DNA of 64,000 nucleotides, from the NCBI RefSeq assembly GCF_003076455.1, contig NZ_CP020918.1:4557117-4621116 (forward strand). The letters are read 5' to 3'. Below, piece by piece: positions 1,130 to 57,938 of this stretch (position 1 is its first letter; each line of letters opens with the position of its first letter). Source of the DNA: Flavobacterium faecale (lineage in GTDB: Bacteria; Bacteroidota; Bacteroidia; Flavobacteriales; Flavobacteriaceae). Position numbers and translations under genes: made by a program. Below the pieces are notes generated by a model. The model did no database searches and was not told where the DNA came from. It saw only the letters and a program-made list of their open reading frames with translations.

Positions 1130-1717
1130 CTACCTTCCTTTTTTACCAAAAAATTTCATTCGGTAATCTTGAAATGTTTTTCCTTCCAATATATTTTTTA
1201 ATTTTTTCTGAATCAAACGTTTTTTCAAAGAGGATATTTTGTCTGTAAACAAGACTCCTTCAATATGATCGTATTCGTGTTGAATAACTCTTGCAATCAA
1301 ACCGTCAAATACTTCGGTTTTCATTACAAAATCTTCTTCACAATATTCAATTGTAATTTTTTCTTTTCTGTATACGTCCTCACGCACATCAGGAATACTC
1401 AAACAGCCTTCGTTAAAAACCCATTCTTCTCCTTCTTCTTTTATCATTTTTGCATTGATAAAAGTTTTCTTAAAAGCACTCATTTTTGTTTTTTCTTCTT
1501 CAGCTAGATCCTCATCATCGCTAAAAGGGGTTGCATCAATCACAAACATACGCAATGCCATACCAACTTGAGGTGCTGCAAGGCCTACTCCAGATGCATT
1601 ATACATCGTTTCGTACATATTTGCAATAGTTTCTTTCAAATTAGGATGTTCAGGTGTTATATCTACCCCAACTTTGCGCAAAACTGGATCTCCATATCCT
1701 ATAATTGGTAAAATCAT
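1130..1717 (-). CDS. def: Peptide deformylase
   Basis: Removes the formyl group from the initiator methionine of nascent proteins at the ribosome exit. All three catalytic motifs are visible: GVGLAAPQ at 43-50, EGCLS at 103-107 (metal-ligand Cys105) and HEYDH at 147-151 (metal ligands and catalytic Glu148). The length of 195 residues is normal for a type I enzyme. There is a mildly acidic insertion around 66-76 (SDDEDLAEEEK), as often seen in Bacteroidetes. The C-terminus is lysine-rich. It is upstream of the DUF5606 gene on the same strand and divergent from the FUSC gene, with 203 nt between start codons. The enzyme is essential, and no defect is seen. Confidence 0.97.
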   Translation of the reverse strand: MILPIIGYGDPVLRKVGVDITPEHPNLKETIANMYETMYNASGVGLAAPQVGMALRMFVIDATPFSDDEDLAEEEKTKMSAFKKTFINAKMIKEEGEEWVFNEGCLSIPDVREDVYRKEKITIEYCEEDFVMKTEVFDGLIARVIQHEYDHIEGVLFTDKISSLKKRLIQKKLKNILEGKTFQDYRMKFFGKKGR

Positions 1718-1895
1718 TGTTTTTTTATTTAGAATTCAATCGATTATTTTAGAATTTCCATTTCTAAAATTTAGCACGAATGGCAAAAATAGTAAAAAAA
1801 TAGACAAGGACTAACCTCTACCAAACAAATGCTATTTTTTAACGTATTATCTAATTTCTAGCCTGAATTGTATGATGATTCTATTTTACAATTCA

Positions 1896-1903
1896 TACTT
1901 TTG
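1896..1903 (+). promoter_or_regulatory. Candidate -7 element of the FUSC gene
   Basis: TACTTTTG fits the Bacteroidetes -7 consensus TAnnTTTG. It overlaps the GTG at 1903 that would otherwise be a possible start, so transcription should begin after that codon and ATG 1921 is the more likely start. A well-spaced -33 TTG is not obvious. Confidence 0.5.
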
Positions 1904-1920
1904 TGAGCAACCCATATGTT

Positions 1921-4143
1921 ATGATTACAAAGATCCAAAAATTCACCGAAAGCACCGAATTTACCAATGCTTTGAAAATTACCATCGCAGGTGCTTTTCC
2001 AGCTTTATTATTTTCTTATTTAGGAGATATAGGCACCGGAATCACGATTGCATTGGGTGCATTTCTTGTTTTTCCGAGTGACATACCTAGTATTTTAAAA
2101 CACAAAGTAAACGGATTAATCATCACTACTTTGATCATCTCGGGAATTACGTTGCTTATCAATCTCACCTATCCTTATCCGTGGTTGTTTTACCCCATAT
2201 TTGTTAGCATCCTCTTTTTGGTCTCCATGCTTGCCGTGTATGACCAACGCGCTACAATGGTAGCTTTTTCTGCCTTAGTAGCTGTTTCACTTTCTTTTGC
2301 TCATGTATACACAGGAATAGAAATCTTTATACATTCGGGACTTATTTTGGTAGGTGGAATTTTCTACCTATTAGTATCGATTCTCTTCTACTTTATTAAA
2401 CCCAATCGTTATGTAGAATTGCAAATAGCTGAGTGCATTAAACTTACCTCCCAATATTTAAAACTACGAGGAGATCTATGGAAAATTAATTCTGATCGAA
2501 AGGAAATCACCAAGAAACAGTTGCATTTGCAAGTAGAACTCAATGCCATACATGAAAATATTCGAGAAATATTAGTACGCCACCGCACCAACTACGGATC
2601 ATCAAATCAAAACCGTAAGATGCTGCTATCATTCATGTCTTTGGTAGAGATTATGGAACTGGCTATTTCAACGTCTTTCGACCACAATAAACTGCACCAA
2701 AAATTTGATGACCATCCTGTAGTTCTTCATACTTACCAAAACCTTGCTTATAACCTAGCGAAGGTGTTGAAGCAACTTGCAAAAAGTATTTCAGACAAAA
2801 AGCCCTACCAATACAAGCACAACATTCTTGAAAATCTTCATGAATTGGAAGATGCCATCGAAGCGTACAAAACTGAACTTGGCCCAATAGATTCTATCGA
2901 AGGAGCTTTGATGTTGACTACAATGCTGCGCTATGCCGAGAATCAAGTTGAGAAAATTAAAATAGTAGAACGTGCTTTTACAACTGCAGTACAACTAAAA
3001 GATCTAAAGGGAAGGGATAAAGATTTAGAAAAACTTATTCAACACCATTACTATCCTATAAATACTTTGGTTGAGAATTTCCGATTTTCATCCACAATAT
3101 TTAGACATTCCTTACGAATTACAGTCACCATCCTGATTGGATTTTTTATTGGAAAAATACTGCCCTTTCAAAATGTTTATTGGATTTTATTGACCATCGT
3201 TGTGATCATGCGCCCCGGCTACGGACTCACCAAAGAGCGTACGTACAACCGTTTTATTGGTACAGCCATTGGCGGCATCATCGCGTTTAGTATCTTGTAC
3301 TTTTCTCCAAGCACCACGGTAATGGGATGCATTACAATCGTGTGTATGTTACTAGGATACTCTTTTAACCCTACAAATTATAAAATCGGGACGACCTTCA
3401 TCACCATGTATGTGATTTTCATCTTTTCGATTCTGTCACCTGGGATAGAAAATTTGATTCAGTACCGAATCCTGGATACCGTTGTAGGTGCCATTTTAGC
3501 CATATTGGCCAATCATTTTTTGTGGCCAAGTTGGGAGTTTTTAAACATTCCCGAATATCTTGAAAAGTCTCTTGAAGCAAATCGAAATTATTTAAAAGAA
3601 TTCTCTGCACTTTACAATAGCAAAAGTGAAGTATCGAGTTCTTATAGATTGGCTCGAAATCAAGCCTTTATAGGAGTAGGGAATTTGATGGCTTCTTTTC
3701 AGCGTATGGTTCAAGAACCGAAATCAAAACAGACCAATCTTCAGCTTTTTTACAAATTAACGGTTTTAAACAATGCTTTGCTTTCATCTGCAGCGTCATT
3801 GGGAACGTATACTCAATCCAATAAAACAACAGCAGCATCTGATGTTTTCAACTCTGCCATCACGCAAATTACTAAAAATCTAGACTATGCCATTTCCATT
3901 CTAAATCAGGAAGACACTAAGAGTACCGACTTTGTAGCTCCAGAGGATATGTCTCGAATTTTTGCCGAATTGCGAAACATTCGTGCTAAAGAATTAAATG
4001 AAGATTCAAGCATTAGCGAGGTCGATTTTAAAAACAAAATGCAAGAAGTACAATTGGTCATTGAGCAACTTATCTGGCTTACAAACTTGTCTGACAATAT
4101 TGTAAAAAGCACCAAACAACTACTAATCAATCCGCAGTCATAA
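1921..4143 (+). CDS. FUSC family integral membrane protein (YccS/YhfK-like)
   Basis: A predicted inner-membrane protein of the fusaric-acid-resistance superfamily (FUSC, YccS/aromatic acid efflux type). The translation from ATG 1921 is 740 residues and has the duplicated layout of the family. A first hydrophobic bundle covers about residues 20-160 and ends in FYLLVSILFYFIKPNRY. A long charged cytoplasmic region with coiled-coil-like helices (170-380) follows. A second bundle covers about 395-520 and contains VYWILLTIVVIMRPGYGLTKERTYNRFIGT, the recognisable FUSC signature, written here as a motif rather than a full alignment. A final helical soluble tail closes the protein. The substrate is unknown; efflux is inferred from the family. 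A GTG at 1903 would add six residues but lies in the -7 box. The gene is transcribed away from def and faces mqo tail to tail. Confidence 0.85.
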   Translation: MITKIQKFTESTEFTNALKITIAGAFPALLFSYLGDIGTGITIALGAFLVFPSDIPSILKHKVNGLIITTLIISGITLLINLTYPYPWLFYPIFVSILFLVSMLAVYDQRATMVAFSALVAVSLSFAHVYTGIEIFIHSGLILVGGIFYLLVSILFYFIKPNRYVELQIAECIKLTSQYLKLRGDLWKINSDRKEITKKQLHLQVELNAIHENIREILVRHRTNYGSSNQNRKMLLSFMSLVEIMELAISTSFDHNKLHQKFDDHPVVLHTYQNLAYNLAKVLKQLAKSISDKKPYQYKHNILENLHELEDAIEAYKTELGPIDSIEGALMLTTMLRYAENQVEKIKIVERAFTTAVQLKDLKGRDKDLEKLIQHHYYPINTLVENFRFSSTIFRHSLRITVTILIGFFIGKILPFQNVYWILLTIVVIMRPGYGLTKERTYNRFIGTAIGGIIAFSILYFSPSTTVMGCITIVCMLLGYSFNPTNYKIGTTFITMYVIFIFSILSPGIENLIQYRILDTVVGAILAILANHFLWPSWEFLNIPEYLEKSLEANRNYLKEFSALYNSKSEVSSSYRLARNQAFIGVGNLMASFQRMVQEPKSKQTNLQLFYKLTVLNNALLSSAASLGTYTQSNKTTAASDVFNSAITQITKNLDYAISILNQEDTKSTDFVAPEDMSRIFAELRNIRAKELNEDSSISEVDFKNKMQEVQLVIEQLIWLTNLSDNIVKSTKQLLINPQS

Positions 4144-49955: not shown

Positions 49956-50867
49956 TATAATAGTTTAGGATGTTAGATTTTGGTATTTAGTTTTCGAAAA
50001 ACGAATAATTCAAAACCGAAATTTAAAATCTCTGCAAATATCTTATTTTTAATAGAAATCTGTTTATAAAAACAGAAATTAAATTTGGAGTTTTTTTTGA
50101 AACACATAGAATCATAGACTTTTGATTGAACCTAAAAGAAGGCGTTTCACTCTCAGAGGAAACATAGATTTTCTTTAAACCATAATTAGAAATTGAAGAA
50201 CATTTAAGAGGAACGGATGTGTATTTAAACTAAAAGCCTGGAAAAAATAATTTAGGATTACATTGAGTATTGATTTGTTTTTTTTTGTGGCGCTTAATCC
50301 AATCCCGACGCTTCTTGACGCTATAGCCCTCTATCAAAATGCTTTTTTTACTAGGTCGTTACAGGAGCTTCTCCCGAAGCGTCGGGACTCGCTCTGTAAC
50401 TCCCGCAAAAAATAGCATTTTTCAGTCGGGGCTGCCGCTACTACCTGGGGCATGAACGAGTTGTGTGTAAATTGGTATTTGAGGATATCTTTAGCACAAG
50501 AAAATTTCTTAATTTATAAGTTTTCTTTTATATATTTGAAGAAAAAAAACTAACCTTCGCTAACCTAACTTAACATGGGTGTATATACGAAGGTTTGTTT
50601 TGCTTAGATATTAGTTCAGTATCACTTTAAATAACAATATTGCTAAAATTAACAGAGTGAAAAATGAGCAAAAAAGCCAACACTTCGACAAAAGCAAAAA
50701 AGATGCAAGACTACATACCAGACAGCGCAAAGTTACACCACATTTGCTTTTGTCCCAACTCCACAAACACAACTTTACAAAAATTATTAGCGTTTTGTGG
50801 AAAACCGTAATGTGCATAAAAACTTAATAGTTACATTTACCATCTACTAATTTTAAAACTACAGAAT
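49956..50867. other. Long intergenic region between hisS and the vWA-kinase operon
   Basis: About 910 nt without a supported gene. It holds a stray copy of the ACACATAGAATCATAG repeat (about 50100-50170) also seen at 59191-59880, and copy D of the nested-hairpin element. A 3' part (50580-50830) includes short phrases such as CTAACTTAACATGGGTGTATA and ACCAGACAGCGCAAAG that look like debris of an earlier mobile element. A weak -7 candidate TACATTTA is at 50832-50839. Confidence 0.6.
50290..50450 (-). repeat. Nested-hairpin intergenic element, copy D
   Basis: AAAATGCTTTTTTTAC..., core GTTACAGGAGCTTCTCCCG-AAGCG-TCGGGACTCGCTCTGTAAC, ...AAAAAATAGCATTTTT. Outer ends AGCCCCGAC and AATCCCGACGC. It shows the clearest nested stem of the five copies. 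Confidence 0.78.
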
Positions 50868-51545
50868 ATGGAACAAACAGGACTTATTATTGACAAACCC
50901 GAGGTGCCAAGAACATTTCATCAACTTGGAATCTTAGTACTAGATGGAAGCGGTTCAATGAATGCAACTGGCAGAGGACAGCTCACTAAAGCGCAAGAAG
51001 TTGAAATGGGTGTAAAAGAACTTTTTACACGTTTCGATGGTAGTAGCAAAAAAAGCAATTTTTCTTTTTCATGTATTAAATTCGACACTTCTTCTACTAC
51101 AACATTACAACCAACACCTTTCCAAGAGATTGATTATTTTAGTGAAAATTTTAATCCATTGGATGGTAAAGGAAGAGGCACACACATTTTTGAGGCACTT
51201 AATGAAGCAAAAAAAATGGCGGAAGAGTTTCTTAATAATGCACCCCAAGATGGACTTAGACATAGTGTCGTTATTCTTTTAATGTCAGACGGCTTATGTT
51301 TTCAACCCGAAACTACAATTGCCGTAGCCGACAATATTAAATTAAATCCTAGTGTAGTAATTGCATCTGCATATTTTGCTGAATTAGGCAATAGCGATAA
51401 TGAAGCAACCGAAATAAAAAATTTATTACAAAATGTTTCTACAAATCCTGTTAAATATTACGCTACTGTTTATGATGGAGAAGCATTAAGGAAATTTTTT
51501 GAAAGTTCAATAAGTCAATCAGCAGGTATTGGAAAAATCAATTAA
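50868..51545 (+). CDS. TerY-like vWA domain protein
   Basis: A 225-residue cytoplasmic von Willebrand A protein. The MIDAS metal site is D26-x-S28-x-S30 in LVLDGSGSMN. The distal threonine is in GRGTHIFEAL and the distal aspartate is in LLMSDGLCF. The domain covers nearly the whole protein. TerY-type vWA proteins form a triad with a PP2C phosphatase and a kinase, as here. They are thought to act as scaffolds in tellurite, stress or phage-response systems. It is the first gene of a four-gene operon, and the next gene starts 9 nt beyond its stop. Confidence 0.85.
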   Translation: MEQTGLIIDKPEVPRTFHQLGILVLDGSGSMNATGRGQLTKAQEVEMGVKELFTRFDGSSKKSNFSFSCIKFDTSSTTTLQPTPFQEIDYFSENFNPLDGKGRGTHIFEALNEAKKMAEEFLNNAPQDGLRHSVVILLMSDGLCFQPETTIAVADNIKLNPSVVIASAYFAELGNSDNEATEIKNLLQNVSTNPVKYYATVYDGEALRKFFESSISQSAGIGKIN

Positions 51546-51554
51546 AACCAAACA

Positions 51555-52406
51555 ATGAACTCATACATCATTACAAAGTCAATCACGCCAAAAATAAAAA
51601 ATGAAGACTATATTGAAAGTTTCAAAAATGAGAAACTTGGCATAAAAGGCTTTATTGTTGGCGACGGTATTGGCTCGCATTTCAAACCGAGCGAAGGTTC
51701 AGAGTTTTGCGTAAAAACTTTAAAAAGTTATATAGAAAATTGTTCTGCAATAGAAGAGCTTAATCTAACTCATTTTTATACTAAAGTCTATAATGACTTA
51801 AAGAATGAATTTACTGATAATGAAAAAGATAACTTGGAAATTGATAAAACTCAATCATACGGAACAACACTTATTTGCGTAATTGAGTTGGAGGAAAAGT
51901 TTATAATTTCCTATTTAGGAAATGGTTCAATATGGCACATCAGAGGAAATTTTTATGATTTTAGCCCTCAAAGATATTTGCCTTGGAATGCAATCAACGT
52001 TCTTAATCCTCATACAGTTGAAGAAAATGGAAAAGAAGCTTTGTATAAGTTTATTGCACTAGAATGTACTGAAAATCAGCTAAAACCAAGCATTTTAGAA
52101 ATAAGCAAAGACAATGAGTTATATGGGGATATTATTTTGGCATCAACAGACGGATTATTTAGCAACGACCATAATCCAATTGCAAAAGACCGAGAAGGAA
52201 ATTTATGGATAAGTGGCGATAAAAAAATTGAGTTGTTATTGAGTACTTTAAAAAAATCATTACAAGATAATTCAATAGAAGAAGTGAACATTAATGCAAA
52301 TATTGATGAATATTTAAATCAAATTACTGAAAATAAATTGATTGATGATGACACTTCTTTTGGAATTATAATTCCATCTAAATCAACAACCATAACACAA
52401 GAATAG
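51555..52406 (+). CDS. PP2C-type protein phosphatase
   Basis: A 283-residue metal-dependent Ser/Thr phosphatase fold. The acidic metal ligands are seen: Asp37 in VGDGIGSH (a DG-x-G-S-H variant of DGxGGH), KNEDY at 15-19, Asp199 in ASTDGLFS and the terminal DDDTSFG (264-266). GTTLICV is the central strand. All catalytic aspartates needed for two metals appear present, so it is likely active. It is 2 nt upstream of the kinase gene and should oppose its action. Confidence 0.87.
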   Translation: MNSYIITKSITPKIKNEDYIESFKNEKLGIKGFIVGDGIGSHFKPSEGSEFCVKTLKSYIENCSAIEELNLTHFYTKVYNDLKNEFTDNEKDNLEIDKTQSYGTTLICVIELEEKFIISYLGNGSIWHIRGNFYDFSPQRYLPWNAINVLNPHTVEENGKEALYKFIALECTENQLKPSILEISKDNELYGDIILASTDGLFSNDHNPIAKDREGNLWISGDKKIELLLSTLKKSLQDNSIEEVNINANIDEYLNQITENKLIDDDTSFGIIIPSKSTTITQE

Positions 52407-52408
52407 TC

Positions 52409-54451
52409 TTGAAAACCATACAAATATCAACTTCATTAAGCACCAACCTACTGTCTGAATTTCAAAATGTTCAGACAATTGAAATCGAAAATAAACCATT
52501 TGCAGAGGGTGCATTCGGCGAAGTTTATGTTTGTTTGAAAGTAAATGGTCAAAAACCATCAGTACCGCAAGTAATTAAATTATTCAAAGAAGATAGTCAG
52601 AACAAACAAGACCATAACTATAATACAATAAGGAAATTACAACAAAAAATAGATGTAAAAAATCAACAACTAAAGCAAAATTCAGGTAAAATAATAACTG
52701 ACAGTTATCCTGCACTAAAAGGATTGCCTCAATTTAGTTTTGAAGGAAATATAAACGGAAAATTATATCGTGGTTTTGCTTCTACCAATCTAAAAAAGAT
52801 AGGTTTTGAAGAATTTATTGACATTTTAGACAAGTCTTACAAAGAATATCAAAAAATAAGCATCGACAAGAAAATGCTTATTGCTTTTCATTTAGCATCA
52901 GGCTTCAAGCTTTTACAAGAAATCTTCTTTATTCACGCCGACTTAAAGCCCGAAGCGATTTTTATTAATACAAAATCAAATGAATGTGCAATCATTGATT
53001 TTGATAGTGGAACTATAACGGAAAATAAAGACGACACCCCAAATACTTGGGGTGCACCAAATGATTGGGTTGCACCAGAAATTTGGGAGCAATTAAAACA
53101 AATTGGTTCTGGCGGTTTGCAACAAGTAAAAGTAAACTTATTATCGGACCTATGGTCAGTTGCCGTTGGAATTCATTACATTCTTACTACTACTCATCCG
53201 TTATTTTATCTTAACGAACTAAGCCCAAGAGTTACTAAAGAATACTTCAAAAAATACAAATGGCCAGAAATAGCAGAAAATGAACCTTTCTTTAATGAAA
53301 GAAATAAGACACAATATATACCCGTAAAAAACTGGCTGCAAAACACTTTACCGAATTCTATTTATAAACAACTTTACAATACTGTTAATTACGGCTACTT
53401 AAACCCAATACAACGAACCACTTACAATGAATGGGAAAAAGTTTTATCTTCTGTTCAGGTACCGCCAATAATCACACAATTCAAATCTAATTCTAAGCAA
53501 ATATTACTAGGAAATGAATTGACTTTGGAATGGGAAATACAAAATTCAACTAGCGTTAAAATTGATAACGGTATTGGAATTGTAAAGTCATCGGATGTTA
53601 TATCCATAAAGCCAAGCAAAAACACTATTTATAAATTAATGGCTAAAAATGCCTTTGATAAAATAGAGCAAACCTTAGAAATAGAAGTTTTACCACCTCC
53701 AAAGATTGTAGAATTCAAAAGCAAGCATCAAAAAATAGGCTATGGAAACACTACACAATTGGTATGGAATATCGAAAATGCTCAAAATGTAGAATTAAAT
53801 ATAGGTGGCAAAACAGAGATTTTGACAAATAAAGATGAAAGAAATATAAACCCAACAGAGCATACAAAATATGTTCTAATTATTACCGCTTTAGATGGTA
53901 TCACTAAAACTGAAAAAGAAGTTACCGTTAAGGTTTTCAAAAAAATTGAAATAAAGAGTTTTACTTCAGATTTTATATTTGTTGTCCAATCCATCCCAAT
54001 AACTCTGACTTGGGAGGTAGAAAATGCTAGCAAAATTATTATTGAAGATGATTTTGGCAAACAAAGAGATGTTTCCAATAGTTCAAATTTAATTGAACAT
54101 ATAAAAAAAGATTGTACATATAGAATTCGATGTTCGAACGATTTATTTAATGCTGTATCTGAAAAAATTTCAATCAATCTTGTACAAAACAAATATGAAT
54201 TAGATCTTAACGGGCTCGTACCACGATTTGACCAAATTCTTCCAGATATTGGGAAAGCAATAAACCTAGACCGCGATTTTATACCATCACTCGACTACGA
54301 AAAAGTATTAAACATTCAAACTATTGACTGTAATCTAAGCATAGATTTAAGCAACGGAGAAATAGAAACGAAGATTGCTAAAAAAATAACGAAACCAAAA
54401 ATCATTAAAATAATTGTAGAGAAATTAAAATCCTATATACAAACATCCTAA
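52409..54451 (+). CDS. Protein kinase-like protein with three Ig-like repeats
   Basis: A 680-residue soluble protein. The kinase-like domain is at about 25-340. The Gly-rich loop is EGAFGEV (33-39), the beta-3 Lys is probably Lys57 (VIKLF), the catalytic loop is H176-A-D178-L-K-P-E-A183, and Asp197 lies in DFD (not DFG). VAPEIW serves as the APE motif. The catalytic-loop Asn is replaced by Ala183, so activity may be weak or altered. Three beta-sandwich repeats follow at about 349-429, 430-510 and 511-592, each with F-x-S, then L-x-W-x-(I/V)-x-N and a TxYxL-like end. No membrane helix or signal peptide is seen. Position in the vWA-PP2C operon supports a phosphorylation switch. Confidence 0.85.
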   Translation: MKTIQISTSLSTNLLSEFQNVQTIEIENKPFAEGAFGEVYVCLKVNGQKPSVPQVIKLFKEDSQNKQDHNYNTIRKLQQKIDVKNQQLKQNSGKIITDSYPALKGLPQFSFEGNINGKLYRGFASTNLKKIGFEEFIDILDKSYKEYQKISIDKKMLIAFHLASGFKLLQEIFFIHADLKPEAIFINTKSNECAIIDFDSGTITENKDDTPNTWGAPNDWVAPEIWEQLKQIGSGGLQQVKVNLLSDLWSVAVGIHYILTTTHPLFYLNELSPRVTKEYFKKYKWPEIAENEPFFNERNKTQYIPVKNWLQNTLPNSIYKQLYNTVNYGYLNPIQRTTYNEWEKVLSSVQVPPIITQFKSNSKQILLGNELTLEWEIQNSTSVKIDNGIGIVKSSDVISIKPSKNTIYKLMAKNAFDKIEQTLEIEVLPPPKIVEFKSKHQKIGYGNTTQLVWNIENAQNVELNIGGKTEILTNKDERNINPTEHTKYVLIITALDGITKTEKEVTVKVFKKIEIKSFTSDFIFVVQSIPITLTWEVENASKIIIEDDFGKQRDVSNSSNLIEHIKKDCTYRIRCSNDLFNAVSEKISINLVQNKYELDLNGLVPRFDQILPDIGKAINLDRDFIPSLDYEKVLNIQTIDCNLSIDLSNGEIETKIAKKITKPKIIKIIVEKLKSYIQTS

Positions 54452-54453
54452 CT

Positions 54454-55845
54454 ATGAGAGATTTTTTTATTTGGTGCAGTGGAGCAAGTGTAGAAATTGT
54501 AAAAAAATGCGATGACAAAGAAATTAGTAAATATGCCAATATCGGTATCGTCGTTTTTTGTGTAGCCTTTCTATCAATCTTTTCAGCAACTTACTTTTTA
54601 TCATTTGCCTTCAATACCGAAGGTACTAATTTTGTATGGCTATATTTACCAATTGGCATCATTTGGGCTTTTATAATTTTGTCGTTAGACAGGGCAATTG
54701 TTTCAACAATCAGTAAAAATGACAGTTTTAATATTCAAATTTTAAAATCAATTCCTAGAGTTGCTTTAGCATTAATGATTGGAATTGTTGTAGCTACTCC
54801 ACTTGAGTTCAAGATATTCGAAAAAGAAGTCAATAACGTTATAATTAGCAAAGTTGAAAAAATTGTCAAAAAAGATTTTGAAAAAGATTTCCAAGGAAAA
54901 CTAAAACTTTGGGAAACTAAAGTAAACGATGAGGAAAAATCGTATTCTGAAGATAAGAGAACCTATGAAGATGAAATTACAGGTAAAAAATCAGGGATTC
55001 CAGGTAAAGGCAAACGTGCAGATGAATATATGCGGAACGAACTTAATAGTTTATCTAAACTAAATATAGCAAAAGATAGTCTAACACAAATACGTCAAAC
55101 AATAGTTGAGGCAGACCAAAATATTTCTTGGCCAGATGAGATAGATAAATATAAATCAAAAAATATAGGCGTTATTGAAAGAGTAAATGTATTATATTCT
55201 TTAGGCGGAACACATTTAGCTATTACTATTTTATTTATTTTGATAGAATTACTTCCCTTGCTTACAAAGCTATTGAGCAATAGAGGTGGCTATGATGAAT
55301 TAATTATTTCAGAGGAGAGAAACAAGCTGCATCAGGCAGATGTTAATCAGCTTAAAGAAAGTGAACTAAAAGAAGAAATATTATCTTTAGAAAACAAAAA
55401 ACATACTCAAAAAGCCAAACTTAGAGTTCAAATCGAACAAAACTTACAAAAAGAAATTTTGACAGAGTTGTCAAAAGCTCAAAATGAGATTGCTTTAAAG
55501 CGTGTAGAAGAATTTAGACAGAAAAATCTAAATAATTTGAACTTACCGACAATTCAACAACCTGTGAACAAAGAAAAATTAGAAGACAAGTTCTGGTTAC
55601 AAATAGGCACAACAGATAAAATTGAATATTTTTTTAGAAATGGAAAATTAAGGGATAATGAATTACTTTATAGCAAAGATGGTACAGTCAGTAAAGGATT
55701 ATGGAACTTTAATCAAACAAAGACCGAATTATCTATCGAACTAGAAAATAATAAAACTGATTTTGAAATAGTTGAAATACTAACAAACAAATTGAAATTA
55801 AAAGATAAAGACCGAAATGATTTTTTAGAGTTTGAAAAGGCATGA
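54454..55845 (+). CDS. DUF4407 membrane protein
   Basis: A 463-residue four-helix membrane protein of the DUF4407 family. Helices lie at about 30-53, 60-78, 101-117 and 255-275. The family-typical LSLDRAIVSTI and VVATPLEFKIFEKEV are present. Between helices 3 and 4 lies a ~135-residue charged loop. After helix 4 comes a long coiled coil (about 285-360), then a separate C-terminal domain (379-463, KFWLQIGTTDKIEYFF) that I do not recognise. It starts 2 nt after the kinase stop, so it belongs to the operon and may be its membrane effector or sensor. No function is known. Confidence 0.82.
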   Translation: MRDFFIWCSGASVEIVKKCDDKEISKYANIGIVVFCVAFLSIFSATYFLSFAFNTEGTNFVWLYLPIGIIWAFIILSLDRAIVSTISKNDSFNIQILKSIPRVALALMIGIVVATPLEFKIFEKEVNNVIISKVEKIVKKDFEKDFQGKLKLWETKVNDEEKSYSEDKRTYEDEITGKKSGIPGKGKRADEYMRNELNSLSKLNIAKDSLTQIRQTIVEADQNISWPDEIDKYKSKNIGVIERVNVLYSLGGTHLAITILFILIELLPLLTKLLSNRGGYDELIISEERNKLHQADVNQLKESELKEEILSLENKKHTQKAKLRVQIEQNLQKEILTELSKAQNEIALKRVEEFRQKNLNNLNLPTIQQPVNKEKLEDKFWLQIGTTDKIEYFFRNGKLRDNELLYSKDGTVSKGLWNFNQTKTELSIELENNKTDFEIVEILTNKLKLKDKDRNDFLEFEKA

Positions 55846-56161
55846 CAATTGACAACTCATTTGTTTTTTTTTCTGCCAGCGCGTAATACTTTTAAAAATT
55901 CAAAAAATCTTTTAAGTCAACACCCTGCTACCGCGCGAATCCTTTCGTGTAGTTCGTAGAAACAAAAATTTACTGATACCGAAAAACGTACTTCGCCCCA
56001 AGTTTGGAAGAAGCGTGATTAAGTAACGTGAAATTAAGATAACAAAATTAGATCATGTTTATTAGCGAGACGTTCGAGCAACCTATTAAATAAGCAATCA
56101 CAAAAAAAATTGGGCGGAAACCGAAAAGCCAACGAGTAGGTGAATAATAAAAAAAGAACAT
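55846..56161. other. Gap after the vWA-kinase operon
   Basis: 316 nt without a gene. It contains a 28-bp sequence (55923-55950) repeated at 56504-56531, with an internal hairpin CGAAtccTTTCG. No clear terminator is seen after the operon. Confidence 0.55.
55923..55950 (+). repeat. 28-bp direct repeat, left copy
   Basis: CCCTGCTACCGCGCGAATCC followed by TTTCGTGT. It differs by one base from the copy at 56504-56531. Contains a small palindrome. Confidence 0.85.
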
Positions 56162-56377
56162 ATGTTATTAGCAATTTTAATTCCTTGGTTATCATTTTTT
56201 ATAAATGGTAAAATCATTCGTGGCATCGTTTGCCTTATTTTACAAATTACAATAATTGGTTGGATTCCTGCGGCAATATGGGCGCTTAGTTCAAGAAATA
56301 GTAGTAAAATGGACAAAAAATTAAAGCAAATGGAAAAGAAAATAATCGCTTCCAATATTTCAAACTCTAAAGGCTAA
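56162..56377 (+). CDS. YqaE/Pmp3-like small membrane protein
   Basis: A 71-residue protein with two hydrophobic segments: about 2-13 (LLAILIPWLSFF) and about 20-41 (IVCLILQITIIGWIPAAIWAL). The IGWIPAAIWAL end of the second helix is close to the LGWIPGIIHAL pattern of Pmp3/YqaE proteolipids, which modulate membrane potential and salt stress. A basic, lysine-rich tail follows. It is flanked by 28-bp direct repeats and lies between the DUF4407 gene and IS30. Confidence 0.7.
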   Translation: MLLAILIPWLSFFINGKIIRGIVCLILQITIIGWIPAAIWALSSRNSSKMDKKLKQMEKKIIASNISNSKG

Positions 56378-56503
56378 AAACTGGATGGACATCAACTAGC
56401 AAAGAAATCATAATTGGTAGTTTTAGTTTCAATAGTTTCTTCGCTGGCAACAGCGTTATCTTTTTTTAATTTTGAATTAATCCATCAGAGAAAGGAATAC
56501 TTC

Positions 56504-56531
56504 CCCTGCTACCGCACGAATCCTTTCGTGT
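56504..56531 (+). repeat. 28-bp direct repeat, right copy
   Basis: Matches 55923-55950 except A for G at one position. Confidence 0.85.
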
Positions 56532-56573
56532 GCTCCGTGAATGGAAAGGTGGATTCAATTAACAAATGCAACC

Positions 56574-57536
56574 TTATGCACATTGTTTAAGTTTTTGCTC
56601 AAAAATTTCATTTGGACTTTTAAAACCAAATCTTTTTCTGGGTCTGTTATTTAATTTATTTGTTACTCTTAAAACCTCTTCTTCTGTTATTAAATCAAAG
56701 TTATATTTTTTTGGAAAATATTGTCTTACTAAACCATTTAAATTTTCATTAGCACCTCTTTCCCAACTACAATATGGGTTGGCAAAGAAGTATGAGATTT
56801 CTAATATTTCAGATACTTTTTTATGGTTAGCGAACTCTTTCCCATTATCAGATGTAATGGTGTGCAAAATGGGCTTCCAATCCATTAATAATTCAATTAA
56901 TTTCTCCTGAATTTCTTGTGATTCCTTACTGTTTATTTTAGCCATTTTAAGCACACCTGATGCTCTGTCATTTATTGTTAACAAAGCTCCTTTGTGATTT
57001 TTACCTATTACCAAATCAATTTCTAAATCCCCAATTCTTTGCTTTTCTTCTACAACCAACGGCCTGTTTTCAATACCAACTCTATCTTTAATAATACCTC
57101 TTGAGCCTTTTAAAGCCCCTCTTTTAGCATATCGCTTTCCTTTTGTGCGTAGGTGCTTATAATGTTGTCCGCCTTTCTTTTTGTCGCTCCAAATGAATTG
57201 ATAAATTGTTTCAATCGAAACACATTCAAAGTTTTTATCACTGCAATATCCTACTATTTGTTCAGGACTGAAATCTTCTTCTAAAAGATGAATAACACGT
57301 GCTTTTATCTGTTCAGTAAAGCGTATTTTCTTAGCTTTTTCATGCTGTCGAATACTGGCCTTACTTTGGGCTAATTTAGCTTTATAAACATTATTTCTTT
57401 GATCGGAATTTCTGGATAGCTCTCTTGAAATTACAGATTTATCTCTACCTATAAACCCTCCAATTTTACTCATTGAAAATCCTTGTGAACGAAGTGTAGC
57501 AATTTCGTATCTTTGTTCAATCGTTAAATGTGACAT
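56574..57536 (-). CDS. IS30-family transposase
   Basis: An intact 320-residue transposase. The N-terminal helix-turn-helix is MSHLTIEQRYEIATLRSQGF, cited as LTIEQRYEIATL, followed by MSKIGGFIGRDKSVISREL. The DDE catalytic residues are Asp in GDLEIDLVIG, Asp in TSDNGKEFANH and Glu in ERGANENLNGLVRQYFP. The length is usual for the family and there is no frameshift, so the element may be active. It lies at the edge of the vWA-kinase island. Confidence 0.93.
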   Translation of the reverse strand: MSHLTIEQRYEIATLRSQGFSMSKIGGFIGRDKSVISRELSRNSDQRNNVYKAKLAQSKASIRQHEKAKKIRFTEQIKARVIHLLEEDFSPEQIVGYCSDKNFECVSIETIYQFIWSDKKKGGQHYKHLRTKGKRYAKRGALKGSRGIIKDRVGIENRPLVVEEKQRIGDLEIDLVIGKNHKGALLTINDRASGVLKMAKINSKESQEIQEKLIELLMDWKPILHTITSDNGKEFANHKKVSEILEISYFFANPYCSWERGANENLNGLVRQYFPKKYNFDLITEEEVLRVTNKLNNRPRKRFGFKSPNEIFEQKLKQCA

Positions 57537-57583
57537 CTTTTTTTTGTGCTTAGTAACCCAAAAATAAGAGAAATTTTTTTCGT

Positions 57584-57635
57584 AGCCTACTGATAAGTCT
57601 TGAAGATCTAGATCTTCAAGACTTATCAGTAGGCT
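57584..57635. repeat. 52-bp perfect palindrome
   Basis: Arms of 26 bp, AGCCTACTGATAAGTCTTGA followed by AGATCT, exactly complementary with no spacer. It lies 48 nt upstream of the transposase start, inside the IS30 leader. On the plus strand it is followed by TTTATTT. Confidence 0.95.
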
Positions 57636-57720
57636 TTATTTAAACAAATAAGGAGTGTTGCATTTATCACTTGAATCTAAGAAATAAAAACTTTCTAAAA
57701 TCAAAAAACATCCTTTCCTT

Positions 57721-57873
57721 CTTAGCCCAGATAGCAGTGGAAATGATGCACGAAAAAACACTATTATTTTCTTGACCCAAAGAGCAGTCCCGACACTTCG
57801 GGAGAAGCTCCTTTGGGACAATGAAAATAAAGTGTTTTGAGAAATCATTGAAACGAATAGCTGGATTAGCTTC
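57721..57873 (+). repeat. Nested-hairpin intergenic element, copy E
   Basis: GCCCAGATAGCAGTGGAAATGA, arms AAAACACTATTATTTTC / GAAAATAAAGTGTTTT, core GACCCAAAGAGCAGTCCCGA..TCGGGAGAAGCTCCTTTGGGAC, end AACGAATAGCTGGATTAGC. It lies in the 402-nt gap between the IS30 transposase and the ABC permease gene. Confidence 0.78.
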
Positions 57874-57938
57874 AAATAAAAAAAGACTATTTCTTGATAT
57901 TGTGGCAAAATGTGTAATTTAGTAGCAAAATTACTAGG

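Follow-up and report, generated by a model that had tools for sequence, protein, structure and literature searches.

A TerY-P-like phosphorylation operon with a DUF4407 membrane partner in Flavobacterium faecale, a candidate defence switch

TerY-P systems consist of adjacent genes for a vWA protein, a PP2C-type phosphatase and a Ser/Thr kinase. In the published accounts consulted, TerY-P is reported to be active against T7-like phages (PMC7699616) and to protect Pseudomonas with most cells surviving (PMC10889362), and the route from phosphorylation to phage protection is not settled. The canonical kinase ends in a zinc ribbon, and TerY-P-like modules whose kinase carries an OB-fold instead are stand-alone antiphage systems, according to PMC11090510. 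Here we describe an operon of Flavobacterium faecale in which the same three genes stand in the same order and are followed by a gene for a DUF4407 membrane protein. It lies in a stretch of 64,000 nucleotides (contig NZ_CP020918.1, positions 4,557,117 to 4,621,116), called the window throughout. The window kinase ends in three predicted immunoglobulin-like (Ig) domains rather than a zinc ribbon or an OB-fold, and the window proteins miss the TerY-P models of PADLOC. The OB-fold variant (PMC11090510) is already a precedent for a kinase with an altered tail. DUF4407 is a common domain of unknown function, and the operon offers a first functional context for it.

We consider it probable that the operon arrived by horizontal transfer and encodes a phosphorylation switch of the TerY-P-like kind, coupled to the inner membrane, whose most likely task is defence against phages or a related stress. 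This reading builds on the gene content, the conserved gene order, the insertion of the locus, the exchange of modules among its relatives and the kinship of a same-genus locus (L052) to TerY-P models. Two other described systems come close. The kinase linked to GAP1-N2 also has a beta-strand-rich tail and lies near PP2C and a standalone vWA protein, but it has a zinc ribbon and belongs to GTPase-centric systems of actinobacteria; the terms DUF4407, Ig-like and immunoglobulin do not occur in the available text (PMC7159879). In KKP (PMC11341870), PP2C and kinases likewise form a mobile antiphage switch. On that pattern the window operon would be a phosphorylation-based toxin-antitoxin system, with the kinase as toxin, the phosphatase as antitoxin and the vWA and DUF4407 proteins as targets or anchors. 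We regard this as highly improbable, as KKP has two kinases where the window has one and the term vWA does not occur in the KKP paper. That paper did not come up in a literature search for DUF4407, and its text was not itself searched for the term.

The four open reading frames (ORFs) follow one another on the forward strand, with 9, 2 and 2 nt between them as read in the window (Table 1), and their coordinates confirm the arrangement given in the original prediction. The domain calls of that prediction are also confirmed by Pfam matches and alignments. The MIDAS residues of the vWA protein (D26, S28, S30, T105 and D141) showed no variation in 7 aligned rows, nor did D18, D37, D199, D265 and D266 of the phosphatase in 6 aligned rows, and the kinase-like domain was recovered as well. 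The DUF4407 protein scored 168.6 bits against PF14362, whose gathering score is 31.3, and thus belongs to the family; hydropathy gave it the four expected hydrophobic segments and none to the other three proteins. Among proteins with the window-type vWA domain, for which 247 relatives were found, three are fused to RNase_Zc3h12a (PF11977; P0220, P0233 and P0234), a possible effector fusion, and six have an extra N-terminal domain of ~80 aa (P0180, P0189, P0193, P0195, P0201 and P0212).

Table 1. Features of the operon and its surroundings, in window positions.
Feature	Position	Strand	Details
vWA (MIDAS) protein	50868..51545	+	225 aa; PF13519 VWA_2 E 1.1e-7, PF00092 VWA E 1.4e-7
PP2C-type phosphatase	51555..52406	+	283 aa; PF13672 PP2C_2 E 9.1e-12
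Protein kinase with C-terminal Ig tail	52409..54451	+	680 aa, TTG start; PF00069 Pkinase E 4.5e-13
Kinase tail: three Ig-like domains in tandem (predicted)	53465..54181	+	residues about 353-428, 432-510, 514-591; AlphaFold2, Foldseek, VIA
DUF4407 membrane protein	54454..55845	+	463 aa; PF14362 E 2.5e-49
Predicted long coiled hairpin of DUF4407, between transmembrane segments TM3 and TM4	54820..55122	+	residues 123-223; AlphaFold2 secondary structure
Lipocalin-like C-terminal barrel of DUF4407	55570..55842	+	residues 373-463; predicted
Small Pmp3-like membrane ORF, downstream of the operon	56162..56377	+	PF01679 E 9.8e-6; ORF read from sequence
Transposase-like gene	56574..57536	-	PF13936 HTH_38 E 2.2e-13; rve below cut-off
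Inserted segment, hisS to MacB/FtsX permease interval	50209..57905	.	ends approximate; ~7.7 kb; blastn against empty site

The same four genes in the same order were found in five other loci: L004 (Weeksellaceae), L005 and L006 (Pedobacter), L007 (Bacteroidia MS495-74), where the kinase frame is split, and L053, from the family of F. faecale. The four-gene co-occurrence, which had been predicted as a conserved partnership with DUF4407, was therefore borne out when checked. In a sample of 14 DUF4407 loci, all four genes were present in 4 (L007 among them) and a kinase/Ig or Ig gene preceded DUF4407 in 3 more (L008, L014 and L016), while 4 (L009, L010, L013 and L017) had neither the full set nor an Ig gene before DUF4407; the remaining three (L011, L012 and L015) hold too little upstream DNA for judging. 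The 680-aa kinase itself is rare. It was matched at E <= 1e-20 in 3/395 genomes of the order, including that of F. faecale (G000) and, by way of tail residues 321-617, G246, and DUF4407 lay in the same gene run in all three. A sample of the phylum gave matches to the kinase/tail profile at E <= 1e-6 in 158/395 genomes, but strong matches (E < 1e-100) came from G000 and G246 only; the rest reached 1.5e-30 at best, and the weaker rows inspected cover one part of the profile. A protein database yielded 72 relatives of DUF4407 and 44 of the tail. Thirteen of these 44 share the size of their longest contig with a DUF4407 relative (12 distinct sizes), the link in these metagenomes being this equality of size, and two of the 12 sizes are those of the contigs of the window and of P. 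cryotolerans themselves.

A link to TerY-P comes from L052, a locus of the same genus that also carries DUF4407. Its proteins match the PADLOC models TerY (vWA protein, 1.5e-49), PP2C (6.6e-28) and STK_OB (two kinases, 6.5e-60 and 1.6e-56). We take these models to be the TerY-P set, going by their names. The kinase parts of the window protein and L052 have no blastp match; the tails of the window kinase and the second L052 kinase share 43.6% identity across 287 aa (E 1.6e-72). The original prediction had compared the operon with a TerY-P triad known from comparative genomics. The likeness stands, but the triad is more than a prediction, since antiphage activity of TerY-P-like modules has been reported. 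In a far relative (L095), same-strand genes encode a vWA protein, PP2C, a kinase whose C-terminus looks like a zinc ribbon, a TPR-like protein (both by inspection) and a DUF4407 fusion.

The C-terminus of the window kinase is predicted to form three Ig folds. AlphaFold2 modelled it as three beta-sandwiches, with strands at tail residues 9-246 and a predicted local distance difference test (pLDDT) of 87-96 per 10-residue block across most of tail residues 11-240. The model gave 503 Foldseek matches at E <= 0.001, and the Foldseek and VIA matches are Ig-type chains. The earlier proposal that Ig-like repeats replace the TerY-P zinc ribbon is thus well supported by the model.

This tail occurs on very different kinase domains. 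Single linkage at 1e-12 gave three clusters of kinase domains, with 29, 11 and 5 members, and the Ig tail is present in all three. In the second cluster, all six members tested (L052 twice, L016, P0093, P0102 and P0108) match STK_OB at 1e-48 or better. The third cluster joins P0092 and P0101 to the kinases of Trichormus, of L095 and of a TerD-bearing Hymenobacter operon (L113) with the order TerD-TerD-TerD-vWA-vWA-PP2C-kinase-DUF475; the tails of P0092 and P0101 are 53% and 40% identical to that of the window, and P0092 has no match to STK_OB. The kinase domains of P0093 and P0092 have no match to the window kinase, and the DUF4407 proteins P0014 and P0016, from contigs equal in size to those of P0093 and P0092, are 67 and 64% identical to that of the window. 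The converse exchange was observed in P0090, with a kinase domain 96% and a tail 50% identical to those of the window. The tail and DUF4407 therefore persist while the kinase domain changes, and two of the three tail-bearing clusters include TerY-P-type kinases.

The Ig repeats also occur apart from any kinase. In L057 (ThiF, JAB) and L014 (ThiF, JAB and a ClpB-type ATPase), a kinase-less Ig-repeat protein is encoded immediately 5' of DUF4407, as the Ig tail is in the window, although the control module there is of ThiF/JAB type rather than a phosphorylation triad. These repeats show weak similarity to the window tail, with identities of 23% (L057) and 27% (L014) across some 200 aa. The JAB of L014 falls below the Pfam cut-off and matches PADLOC JAB at 1.9e-14; the E2-like and ubiquitin-like genes of both loci were labelled by inspection, with weak support for the L014 E2 alone (PADLOC E2, 9e-4). 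The series of JAB, E2-like, E1 and Ig genes recurs in L155, whose contig stops there. We tentatively suggest, at somewhat less than even odds, that the Ig arm and DUF4407 form a portable membrane module used both by three lineages of kinase (two being TerY-P) and by kinase-less E1/JAB systems. If so, bacterial modification-based immune systems would share a membrane-coupling part, swapped through recombination where kinase domain and tail meet. Such a conserved membrane partner, which ubiquitin-like operons may share, would be a concrete candidate for the sensor or output that TerY-P systems still lack. We found no description of an Ig-DUF4407 module in the open-access literature searched. The original view that DUF4407 is locked into the triad operon did not hold, as the gene also occurs solo, in tandem pairs and in the E1/JAB operons.

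Several observations weigh against the operon being a TerY-P-like defence switch. The window vWA and PP2C proteins gave no match to the TerY-P models at E <= 1 and no blastp match to the TerY-P sets or L052, and the window kinase matches the mad6, PD-T4-6 and MkoA models, not STK_OB. An hhalign comparison of the window PP2C with that of TerY-P gave 15.9% in a run without unrelated controls. Unrelated Ig-like proteins are frequent among the tail matches. No recognised defence gene adjoins the window operon, whose neighbours are a transposase and a Pmp3-like ORF. The viral contigs searched hold no close relatives of the vWA protein or kinase, and the plasmids searched none of the vWA protein, kinase or DUF4407. 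Finally, Ala replaces the catalytic Asn of the HRDxxxxN motif (position 183) in the window kinase, and 21 of the 38 kinase rows counted have Ala at this position; P0113 and P0116, also among the 40 aligned rows, are non-kinases and were not counted. As to the model searches, the TerY-P-like proteins of L113, L114 and L095 also fail the TerY-P models, except the L095 vWA protein (E 0.012), which argues that these models are narrow. Direct comparison of the window kinase with that of Hymenobacter gave a blastp E of 1.5e-6, and hhalign gave 97.7% for vWA and 99.1% for kinase between window and TerY-P, with no unrelated kinases or vWA proteins as controls.

The missing Asn raises the question of whether kinases like that of the window have become pseudokinase scaffolds, whose Ig arm would build a membrane complex with the vWA protein and DUF4407, phosphorylation being secondary. 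We think this quite unlikely: the Gly-loop, Lys57, Asp178 and Asp197 are retained in the window kinase, and the phosphatase, which would have nothing to do if no phosphate were transferred, has its acidic positions intact.

Under the phosphorylation-switch reading, both enzymes would be catalytically active. The phosphatase would hold the switch off until infection or envelope damage tips the kinase/phosphatase balance, upon which the kinase would modify a partner, the vWA protein and DUF4407 being the probable targets. With its three Ig domains the kinase may dock to the four-transmembrane DUF4407 protein, which would either report the state of the envelope to the kinase or execute a membrane response. 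We infer the activity and substrates of the enzymes, the docking, the topology of DUF4407, the trigger and the outcome. The AlphaFold2 model of DUF4407 has a mean pLDDT of 82 and a predicted template modelling score (pTM) of 0.46. In L095 (7195-10245), DUF4407 is fused to transglycosylase and transpeptidase domains of the penicillin-binding protein type, and because an extra hydrophobic segment parts DUF4407 from these enzymatic domains, the C-terminus of DUF4407 is suggested to be cytoplasmic. Taking the side of the membrane from this fusion, the long hairpin would be periplasmic, and the long helix and lipocalin-like head cytoplasmic.

The fusion also bears on a different function, in which the operon is an envelope or chemical stress response rather than an antiphage system. 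The DUF4407 hairpin would detect damage to the periplasm or cell wall and the triad would pass the signal on, a role that has been proposed for TerY-P triads linked to ter genes. Two TerD genes ~2.9 kb from DUF4407 in L006, where an SNase and an HSDR_N protein also occur, fit such a role, and DUF4407 matches in 139/395 genomes of the order, mostly to a ~375-aa protein, hint that the domain may serve a housekeeping function. We nevertheless hold this alternative to be unlikely. The F. faecale genome, searched as a whole for TerD alone among the ter genes, has none, so the earlier remark that no ter genes are nearby holds as far as TerD goes; beside one relative, L006, ter genes do occur. Effector or defence genes accompany the operon in four relatives: SLATT_5 lies 171 nt after DUF4407 in L004; a DarT gene overlaps the end of DUF4407 in L016 and is followed by DUF6939; PLD genes stand in or immediately 5' of the L052 and L053 operons; and the L053 run continues with ZacB-like (2e-12) and ZacA-like (9e-6) genes beside a divergent DrmD-like helicase (3e-90). 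None of these SLATT_5, DarT, PLD, Zac/Drm-like, TerD, SNase or HSDR_N neighbours occurs in the window. The rare, patchy and inserted locus fits a conflict system better than a stress response. A defence or stress role, already suggested in the original prediction, is upheld as the leading idea.

The insertion was defined against the empty site of the closest congener (L115), where the upstream blastn match stops at 50208 and homology restarts at 57906. Among 46 genomes of the genus searched, the MacB/FtsX permease was found in 43 and hisS in 45 (E <= 1e-60). Both lie on one contig in 42, including that of F. faecale, and on two contigs in G771. The gap between them, computed by hand from the match tables, is at most 939 bases in all 41 other congeners and 7,983 here. 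The operon has a GC content of 30.6%, and the genes on either side have 40.0 and 40.2%. The best reading of these sequence features is that the operon was horizontally acquired and is mobile. The transposase-like gene downstream is, by inspection, presumably of IS30 type. A 35-nt direct repeat lies 3' of the operon (55923-55957 and 56504-56538), and a 27-nt inverted repeat pair (50363-50389 and 57786-57812) lies close to both ends of the inserted segment.

DUF4407 is also found in other settings. The open-access literature search returned no functional account of it, the mentions looked up being table entries. The F. faecale genome has three DUF4407 matches, none of the common ~375-aa kind; a strong match was found in 33 of the 36 other genomes of the genus sampled. 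Tandem DUF4407-like pairs beside a recurring ~565-aa family make up most of a group of loci (L051, at G000:C1:2870000-2889000, L054, L055, L056, L091 and L101, the last with one DUF4407-like gene labelled). This is a second, separate DUF4407 system, present in the F. faecale genome too. A set of three genes, two of which encode a TPR histidine kinase and a response regulator, adjoins 5 of the 22 accessory DUF4407 loci (L005, at 1383-3749, L006, L051, L052 and L091) and 0 of 20 control loci, all sorted by hand and several of them incomplete; the set could be a regulator or mark a shared insertion hotspot. DUF4407 adjoins a dynamin-like GTPase in L017 (5936-10125) and a HerA-like ATPase in L013 (8935-13599), and a DUF4407-like stretch occurs in Lak megaphages of Prevotella (15 records, H1-H15) and in a 673-kb viral contig (L109).
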